DNA of 56,613 bases, taken from positions 1 through 56,613 of the forward strand of contig JAOAJH010000006.1 in the NCBI GenBank assembly GCA_026414305.1, written 5' to 3'. Positions 6,664 through 42,517 of this stretch are shown here, piece after piece (the stretch's first letter is position 1; the number at the start of each line of letters is the position of its first letter). Made by a program: the position numbers and the translations under genes. The stretch is from Candidatus Aenigmatarchaeota archaeon (GTDB lineage: Archaea > Aenigmatarchaeota > Aenigmatarchaeia > CG10238-14). The notes under the pieces are model-generated. The model was not told the DNA's origin. It searched no databases and saw only the letters and a list, made by a program, of their open reading frames with translations.

Positions 6664-7152
6664 TCAATGGGCCAATAGTCTATCGGCTAGGACGCAGCCC
6701 TTACAAGGCTGAGAGCGCAGTTCAATTCTGCGTTGGCCCATCAAATGTCTGAATTCTTCAAAGCTTATTATGTTACTGTAAAACACTCTACCCCTTTCTA
6801 TAAGCTGTTTGTCATTTGTGACCATTGTCATTCTTTTCTTTTTTGAAATAGCAAGGTGAATGCCATCTTTTTCATCTATTTGATGCATGTTAAATATCAA
6901 AACTTCTTTATCGATTTCAACACGCTCGATTATATTTACTCCAAATTCTTTCAACAAATTTTTAATATCTTCATACGAAAAATTCAATCTTAGATGACAA
7001 ATAATTTCTGATATTGTTAAAAATGATATGTATATTTCTGCTTTCCTTGAAAACTGCTTGATCAAAAACAGATTTCTAGAAAAGCCGCTTGAATAATTTT
7101 TAAAAAAACCAAAAAGTATGTTTGTGTCTAAATAAAACTTCACAAAAATCAC
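6664..7152 (-). CDS. PIN-domain ribonuclease (VapC-like), tail antisense to tRNA-Val
   Basis: Residues 1-137 form a PIN domain, the metal-dependent RNase fold of VapC toxins and related nucleases. Acidic residues sit at the expected places: D9 in YLDTN, E49 in ISEI, D96 in DGIHLAIS and D114 in VTNDKQL. A complete domain would end near FEEFRH. The last 25 residues are encoded by the antisense strand of tRNA-Val, so the original stop has probably been lost. Its ATG overlaps the stop of the preceding unknown gene by four bases, so the two are co-translated. In toxin systems the PIN gene usually follows a small antitoxin gene; here the partner is much larger (about 233 residues). Confidence 0.75.
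   Translation of the reverse strand: MIFVKFYLDTNILFGFFKNYSSGFSRNLFLIKQFSRKAEIYISFLTISEIICHLRLNFSYEDIKNLLKEFGVNIIERVEIDKEVLIFNMHQIDEKDGIHLAISKKKRMTMVTNDKQLIERGRVFYSNIISFEEFRHLMGQRRIELRSQPCKGCVLADRLLAH
6669..6740 (+). tRNA. tRNA-Val, anticodon UAC
   Basis: The 72-base cloverleaf has acceptor GGGCCAA/TTGGCCC, D stem GTCT/GGAC, anticodon stem CAGCC/GGCTG with loop CTTACAA, T stem CGCAG/CTGCG and discriminator A. Anticodon UAC reads GUA and other Val codons. No intron and no encoded CCA. The whole gene is antisense to the last 25 codons of the PIN-domain gene. Confidence 0.93.
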
Positions 7153-7850
7153 ACAAATGAAGTTATTATGTCAACTATCTGCTTTATTTCAAACCTTGGT
7201 TTCCATTTGAAATAACTGTCAGCCATTTTTATTGTGCCTTTGTCCCCATTTATTGTAACCATGTATTCCCTTGACATGTATTTTATTTTTGGTATTATTG
7301 ATATCATCCTTAAAGAGTCTGGTTTTGCTTTCAAATAAGTGCTGTATTTTTCGTTGTTTTCTAGATGTCTACCTCTTATTATGCTATACCACAATCCATG
7401 TATATACTTGAACATTGCCTGTTTCAACTCACTGCTGTAAGCATTTACAATTTTTGCAAGCTGATCTGCTGTAAGTGAATATGTGTAAAATTTTGCTGAT
7501 AGTATTTTTTCAAGCTTCTGTTTTATTGCTTCTGTAATAGCATCATATCCTCTATATATTTCTAGTGTTTTTTTCTTTACATCCAAAAAACAATATATTT
7601 TTCTTATTATCTTTTCCTTGCCATTTTCCTTTAAATATTGTACTATTTCTGACGCATCTTCTGGAAACAACCTTGATAGCCCGTTTTCCACATTTTCTTC
7701 AAACCAAACATCAATTTCAACCTCATCCTCTCTGAATCTTGATTCTTTAGCCCTAAATGTAAAGCCATTTTCTCTCCTTCCGTCAAGCAGCTTAACTGTT
7801 TGGTTTTTTGATATTATTTCATCAAATTTGAACAAACTTATCGTCGTCAT
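7149..7850 (-). CDS. Uncharacterised protein co-translated with PIN nuclease
   Basis: The start is set at ATG 7850 because a GGTGGTGTA ribosome-binding site lies directly before it; the open frame extends 20 codons further upstream to 7910 without such a site. The 233-residue product starts MTTISLFKFDEI. It has a probably strand-rich first third (NGFTFRAKESRF, VEIDVWF), a helical middle and a C-terminal strand pair (REYMVTINGDKGTIKM) before a closing helix. No signal peptide or membrane segment is present. I do not recognise a family. Four-base overlap with the PIN gene and divergence from an HTH gene suggest a functional module; the protein could be an antitoxin-like partner or an RNA-binding cofactor. 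Confidence 0.6.
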   Translation of the reverse strand: MTTISLFKFDEIISKNQTVKLLDGRRENGFTFRAKESRFREDEVEIDVWFEENVENGLSRLFPEDASEIVQYLKENGKEKIIRKIYCFLDVKKKTLEIYRGYDAITEAIKQKLEKILSAKFYTYSLTADQLAKIVNAYSSELKQAMFKYIHGLWYSIIRGRHLENNEKYSTYLKAKPDSLRMISIIPKIKYMSREYMVTINGDKGTIKMADSYFKWKPRFEIKQIVDIITSFV

Positions 7851-7872
7851 TACACCACCTTTTATATTCTTT

Positions 7873-7924
7873 ATTGTATATACATTAATAATAATACATT
7901 TAAACTCCAATTTATATATACAAT
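7873..7924. promoter_or_regulatory. Perfect 10-bp inverted repeat in divergent promoter region
   Basis: Arms ATTGTATATA (7873-7882) and TATATACAAT (7915-7924) are exact reverse complements separated by 32 AT-rich bases. The repeat is centred almost midway between the divergent starts at 7850 and 7940. Likely TATA elements lie inside it or overlap its arms. Such symmetry is what a dimeric or tetrameric repressor would bind, most simply the HTH protein encoded to the right. This is an inference; AT-rich DNA also gives chance symmetry. Confidence 0.5.
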
Positions 7925-7939
7925 TAAGGTGAGGTTTGT

Positions 7940-8410
7940 ATGAATGTTAAAAAAGGGGCAGAGGGTTTTGAATATGACACAAAAAATACCTACAAAATTC
8001 TTGATTTGTTGAAACAAAACATAAGAGGCCTTACTATAACTGAAATAGCAGAAAAATTGCTATTAAATAGACACACAGTTACAAAAATTCTTGAAAAATT
8101 ACTTATAGAAAAAAGAGTCAATTATGACGAAAAAGGAGCTGCAAAAATATTTTATTATGTTGGTGAAGGGAAGTTTGTAGGTAAAATAGATCAAGGGAAA
8201 CAGGACACTTTGTGGATTGATGTTTTCAAGCCATATTATGCAGGCGAGGAAGAGCTTGTAAGGATAAATCAAACAAAACACGATAACCTGTCCAGATCAA
8301 GTAGCAAATATAGATCTGTTGGTGCTATAGCAATAAAAAAGAAAAGTGTTGTTAATCTGATAAGACTGCTAAGAGACGTTGCAAAGAATGATTTAGGTCT
8401 TGACATTTGA
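7940..8410 (+). CDS. Winged helix-turn-helix transcriptional regulator
   Basis: The 156-residue protein has an N-terminal wHTH at about residues 15-70: LDLLKQNIRGLTITEIAEKL, then LNRHTVTKILEKLL as recognition helix, followed by a short wing (KRVNYDEKGAAKIFYYV). The C-terminal half (about 75-156) is a separate alpha/beta region of unknown fold that may sense a signal. Translation begins behind GGTGAGG. It is divergent from the unknown/PIN gene pair and shares a promoter region containing a perfect inverted repeat, so it probably controls that pair and itself. Its 3' end overlaps the convergent glycosyltransferase by 18 bases. Confidence 0.75.
   Translation: MNVKKGAEGFEYDTKNTYKILDLLKQNIRGLTITEIAEKLLLNRHTVTKILEKLLIEKRVNYDEKGAAKIFYYVGEGKFVGKIDQGKQDTLWIDVFKPYYAGEEELVRINQTKHDNLSRSSSKYRSVGAIAIKKKSVVNLIRLLRDVAKNDLGLDI

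Positions 8411-39534: not shown

Positions 39535-42517
<2,983 letters not shown>

Follow-up and report, generated by a model that had tools for sequence, protein, structure and literature searches.

RdgC, known from E. coli, other Proteobacteria and phages (PDB 2OWL, 2OWY), is built from a base domain, a centre and a two-helix tip inserted between strands 4 and 5 (PMC11077077). The same fold occurs in lambda RexA, which works together with RexB to exclude phages (PMC11077077), and kinship with RdgC has been stated for the kinetochore proteins Iml3 and Chl4 (PMC4080450). In Haloarchaea and Bacillus, an RdgC-like protein is encoded with a membrane protein bearing a winged helix-turn-helix (wHTH) in the conserved "RdgC histone" operons (PMC11390915). 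Recombination control in bacteria, phage exclusion and the kinetochore of eukaryotes are linked by this fold, which is poorly known from archaea; our literature search found nothing on point for archaeal RdgC with TBP-like proteins or for prokaryotic kinetochore TBP-like proteins.

The window, which is the whole 56,613-nt stretch of Candidatus Aenigmatarchaeota DNA analysed here, contains a gene for a 233-residue protein of predicted RdgC fold, placed between a divergent wHTH regulator gene and a PIN-domain nuclease gene (Table 1). The original prediction had described the three genes as a self-controlled nuclease module in which a large protein of unknown family takes the antitoxin or targeting role, and it was right to hold the unknown gene to be the interesting part. 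The wHTH regulator and PIN genes are ordinary; what is unusual is the RdgC/CENP-L fold, together with an operator found across the order and a nuclease slot of variable content. On balance, we favour reading the locus as a self-regulated module of a wHTH regulator and an RdgC-fold clamp, whose slot repeatedly takes up nuclease-toxin genes. An order-wide archaeal family whose operator is conserved while its nuclease partner changes is a new place to probe the function of this fold.

Table 1. Features of the locus in the window, and contents of the slot behind the RdgC-like gene in related genomes.
Feature	Position	Strand	Basis	Genomes
PIN-domain nuclease (clade A)	6664-7152	-	PF01850 4.7e-8	
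tRNA-Val (TAC)	6668-6742	+	ARAGORN; converges on PIN gene	
RdgC-fold protein, 233 aa	7149-7850	-	ORF call, homologue starts, predicted fold	
Putative palindromic operator, TTATTGTATATACATTAA (+ strand); consensus TTAATGTATAKACATTAA	7871-7888	.	alignment of 17-21 loci	
Likely TATA box of RdgC-like gene, TTTAAATG	7897-7904	-	sequence	
Likely TATA box of HTH gene, TTTATATA	7911-7918	+	sequence; overlaps right arm (7915-7924) of the 10-bp repeat	
wHTH regulator, 156 aa	7940-8410	+	ORF call	
Slot: clade A PIN behind RdgC-like gene				G000, G001, G003, G010, G018, G023
Slot: clade B PIN behind RdgC-like gene				G016, G019, G021, G026, G029
Slot: clade C, PIN_3-type PIN and convergent AbrB-like gene			AbrB-like gene named by eye	G033, G035
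Slot: clade D, RHH-like gene and VapC-like PIN			RHH-like gene named by eye	G025
Slot: PBECR2-like nuclease and DUF2283-like gene			DUF2283-like gene named by eye	G015
Slot: no toxin directly adjacent				G005, G006, G008, G011, G012, G022, G034

The gene layout was borne out, both in the 4-nt overlap of the PIN and 233-residue reading frames and in the divergent orientation of the wHTH frame. We place the start of the 233-residue gene at ATG 7850 and not at TTG 7910, because its homologues all begin at ATG 7850. The protein does lie outside all sequence families checked, as had been supposed: none in Pfam, NCBIfam, PHROG or PADLOC scored above its cut-off. An AF2 model made with 20 homologues has a pLDDT of 90.7 and a pTM of 0.86, and Foldseek against the PDB returned E. 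coli RdgC as the best match (3.7e-9), followed by CENP-L (6e-5), Iml3 (2e-4) and CENP-N, with the kinetochore proteins ranging from 6e-5 to 3e-3. Among viral models, the search picked out RdgC of phages and "exonuclease" proteins, the best at 6e-10. The matches have TM-scores near 0.5 and high RMSD, for a single predicted model, as expected if the domains are turned against each other. A tip of two helices (54-61 and 66-75) lies between strands 4 and 5 of the model, and the base domain that follows has five strands and four helices; this domain order and tip insertion agree with the published description of RdgC (PMC11077077). The model is a confident one, and its predicted RdgC fold would be shared with CENP-L/N.

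The likeness ends at the fold. Comparison of the 233-residue profile with 13 RdgC sequences (hhalign) gave a probability of 1.8% and no sequence similarity, and we therefore call the protein RdgC-fold without assigning it to the RdgC sequence family. RdgC has 303 residues and is acidic, whereas the archaeal protein has 233, is basic (predicted pI ~9 in most homologues) and, unlike RdgC, is accompanied by a divergent regulator and a nuclease slot. It is about the size of Iml3, and the RdgC/TBP-like fold is predicted to be common to it, CENP-L/Iml3 and CENP-N/Chl4, but those proteins form a partner pair while the archaeal protein is single, and a profile search of the PDB returned nothing up to E 5, a sequence relation to kinetochore proteins included. 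The RdgC-histone operons, compared here by description, also combine an archaeal RdgC fold with a nearby winged-helix protein; they begin with a histone-fold gene and belong to a different lineage, whereas our module has neither a histone gene nor a transmembrane partner and its neighbours are the HTH, PIN, tRNA-Val, prefoldin-like (named by eye) and SRP-type GTPase genes. RdgC itself is a ring-shaped dimer whose DNA binding shows no sequence preference. By analogy with it, and with Iml3-Chl4 as an open form, the archaeal protein would most likely dimerise into a ring or clamp that holds double-stranded DNA.

The 233-residue family is present in 23 of the 36 genomes of one Candidatus Aenigmatarchaeota order, where absences may partly reflect incomplete assemblies, and among the 156 phylum genomes searched none outside that order scored above threshold. 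Possible relatives outside the order were rejected, since they matched only at E 0.02-0.05 and inside long frames. The viral contigs and plasmids searched held no relative, and matches to phage sequences (E ~0.7) were set aside as chance. The HTH family, found in 21 of the 156 genomes, is restricted to the same order, and the HTH gene adjoins the RdgC-like gene divergently in 17 loci. Many loci have a prefoldin-like gene and SRP-type GTPase genes past the HTH gene, and tRNA-Val borders the module on its opposite flank in G000, G001, G003, G006, G010 and G011 and likewise in G015, G016, G019, G021 and G034; because these flanks are shared by many relatives, the locus looks vertically inherited. 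Between G000 and G003, dN is 0.045 for both the HTH and the RdgC-like gene, at a dS of 0.6-0.9, and 0.155 for the PIN. From these comparisons of genes, the conserved unit is the divergent pair of wHTH and RdgC-like genes, confined to one Aenigmatarchaeota order, and the two genes are under strong purifying selection.

The wHTH protein has an N-terminal winged helix and, at the C-terminus, a conserved beta/alpha domain of no recognised kind, with 57-92% identity over 16 loci. Like the autoregulators of the MarR and Lrs14 types it combines a wHTH domain with a palindromic site in a divergent gap, but it scores below both curated family cut-offs, just missing that of MarR (5.6e-5; 23.4 bits against the Pfam cut-off of 24.6) and not reaching that of Lrs14 (1.4e-3; 18.6 bits against 90). 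It weakly resembles the HTH of Csa3/CARF proteins in PADLOC, and a fold search with its predicted model (pLDDT 76) gave generic wHTH domains and nothing further.

The 10-bp inverted repeat that had been proposed as a symmetric operator does have exact arms, at 7873-7882 (ATTGTATATA) and 7915-7924 (TATATACAAT), but it is not the conserved operator. Perfect repeats of at least 10 bp appear in 2.4% of base-composition shuffles of this AT-rich gap, and the long repeat, with its arms 32 nt apart, was rejected since G001, from the same genus, has not retained the right arm. The conserved element is an 18-bp palindrome within which the left arm lies (Table 1). It is symmetric column by column, with its centre mostly 22-38 nt before the RdgC-like start codon; it sits just downstream of the RdgC-like TATA box, over the predicted transcription start, and in most loci a TATA-like box precedes it. 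Archaeal repressors commonly bind just downstream of a TATA-like box. At up to four mismatches the palindrome is found in 16 of the 17 loci with a divergent HTH gene, the same loci from which the consensus was drawn, and in none of the three without one (G005, G022, G025; Fisher p ~0.004, by hand). It is weak in G035, and G014, which has the HTH gene without the RdgC-like gene, carries an exact copy before HTH. Among 150-nt stretches of comparable random sequence, 0.1% come within three mismatches of it. We take the palindrome to be a real, if putative, operator of the module. The wHTH protein, probably as a dimer, would bind it over the RdgC-like transcription start and so repress the RdgC-like gene. 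A role as a genome-wide regulon site was rejected, because the palindrome is the sole site at one mismatch or fewer in the 819 kb of this genome and the extra matches in relatives look sporadic.

The third gene behaves differently from the conserved pair. The PIN domain of the window (~6796-7134) keeps its four acidic residues and may well be active. PINs stand behind the RdgC-like gene in 14 of 22 loci, in four clades, with the PIN start at most 10 nt from the RdgC-like stop in 11 of the 14. PF01850 has two matches in this genome, the window PIN and one in a 605-aa open frame, and 0-9 matches in each of the other genomes; a tree of the slot PINs and the other PINs of the same genomes requires the linked label to change at least five times. 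Given that tree and the few PF01850 genes, four separate PIN placements in one slot would not be expected from random gene order. As seven loci lack a toxin there, the module can do without a nuclease, and on this distribution we consider the PIN a variable add-on to the HTH and RdgC-like genes. The PIN is routinely found apart from the other two genes, which is not so for the HTH and RdgC-like pair; of the nuclease module first proposed, the conserved divergent pair under its own operator and the usual coupling of a nuclease remain, while the form of the operator does not.

How the slot is filled bears on what the pair is for. In the module that we favour, the slot between the RdgC-like stop and tRNA-Val would repeatedly acquire nuclease-toxin genes, which would become translationally coupled to the RdgC-like gene and thereby come under the same switch. 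There is almost an even chance that the slot is instead a toxin hotspot, in which the HTH/RdgC-like pair serves a separate function, such as maintaining DNA or controlling recombination, and the PINs are functionally unconnected passengers in a permissive gap beside tRNA-Val. The flanking tRNA-Val of many relatives, cargo that varies by lineage and, in three of the clades (B, C and D), comes with antitoxin candidates of its own, the lone clade B PINs elsewhere in the phylum, and the ~10-kb integrative element that entered the same place in G021 all argue for such a hotspot. Arguing against it, the cargo is nearly always on the same strand, close behind the RdgC-like stop and of the toxin-nuclease kind, and strong clade A matches in the phylum occur only beside an RdgC-like gene, across two families. 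The data agree with either a swappable effector slot or a hotspot, and the four PIN clades and the toxin-free loci provide natural replicates for the question of passenger versus effector.

The antitoxin role first suggested for the unknown protein does not hold in general, given the seven loci without an adjacent toxin and the four PIN clades, three of which have candidates of their own. Those of clades C and D are the convergent AbrB gene and the upstream RHH gene. Clade B has a conserved convergent micro-ORF (31-40 aa; motif F-D/K-D/E-P-E-L) at 13 of the 21 PIN ends examined, whether or not the PIN is linked to an RdgC-like gene, and in nine of the 13 cases the stops of micro-ORF and PIN overlap by 4-6 nt; we regard this micro-ORF as a candidate micro-antitoxin of unusual arrangement. 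With such candidates in clades B, C and D, there is no need for the RdgC-like protein to act as antitoxin there. PINs unlinked to the RdgC-like gene have no partner resembling it, and many of them stand alone; clade B PINs in particular occur in many genomes without the RdgC-like gene. Our literature search found nothing on point for toxin-antitoxin systems of Aenigmarchaeota or for convergent PIN antitoxins.

For clade A a dedicated pair, in which the RdgC-like protein neutralises the PIN, could still be entertained, since no small or separate antitoxin candidate was found at clade A loci and strong relatives of these PINs are restricted to the neighbourhood of the RdgC-like gene. We consider this improbable. 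The clade A PINs do form a supported, all-linked group in the PIN tree (98/81), and in the window the PIN gene overlaps the gene upstream by 4 nt, as in VapBC-type systems. Those systems have a small cognate antitoxin, however, whereas the upstream gene here is large and RdgC-fold, is kept without a PIN in the same-family G006, G008 and G011, sits with unrelated PINs elsewhere and, unlike typical antitoxins, is more conserved than the PIN; regulation, too, would come from a separate divergent gene.

Lambda RexA/RexB offers another comparison, being an RdgC-fold protein gene followed by an effector gene, as in the module. RexB is a membrane effector, whereas the slot here holds PIN or other nuclease genes, and our module has a dedicated divergent wHTH regulator. 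A sensor-effector switch on this pattern, in which the RdgC-fold protein would sense foreign or damaged DNA and license interchangeable nucleases, strikes us as unlikely. It would accord with the part of RexA in phage exclusion, with the conserved pairing of RdgC-like and wHTH-bearing membrane proteins in Haloarchaea and Bacillus, and with the exchange of effectors behind a constant RdgC-like gene; in one case, G021, a split RdgC-like gene goes with a degraded PIN, as if the two had decayed together. Against it stand the seven loci without an effector, a locus that is syntenic and not patchy, the lack of relatives in the viral contigs and plasmids, and the lack of a PADLOC match for either the RdgC-like protein or the window PIN, on which ground membership of a known anti-phage defence family was also rejected. 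That DPANN archaea have here a RexAB-like, effector-swapping suicide or defence switch built on an RdgC/CENP-L-fold DNA sensor is likewise a speculative proposal, to which we give a low probability. The reading that we favour is the self-regulated clamp module described above.

Several observations concern single loci. In G021 (L074:4166-14570), a ~10.4-kb element with genes for a tyrosine integrase, a NERD protein and a D5-like primase has entered the RdgC-like gene at its 3' end; beyond the element lie the final 30 RdgC-like codons and then the PIN, which has lost the conserved Glu and eight residues. At L171:1486-3549 (G150), clade B PIN genes occur as a tandem of three, ~300 nt apart, and the micro-ORF lies tail to tail with a clade B PIN in G016, G019, G021, G029 and the L165-L176 loci. 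In the window, the 3' end of the PIN frame (6664-6742) is antisense to the tRNA-Val gene, which had been overlooked, and the last ~25 PIN residues are therefore tRNA antisense sequence; they are identical in G003. The gene abutting tRNA-Val runs into its antisense strand in G000, G003 and G001, where it is the PIN, and in G034 (L088 3905-3977) the RdgC-like gene itself does so. Elsewhere in the window, positions 40001-42000 have a GC content of 51% against ~33% around them, and may be an rRNA gene region.
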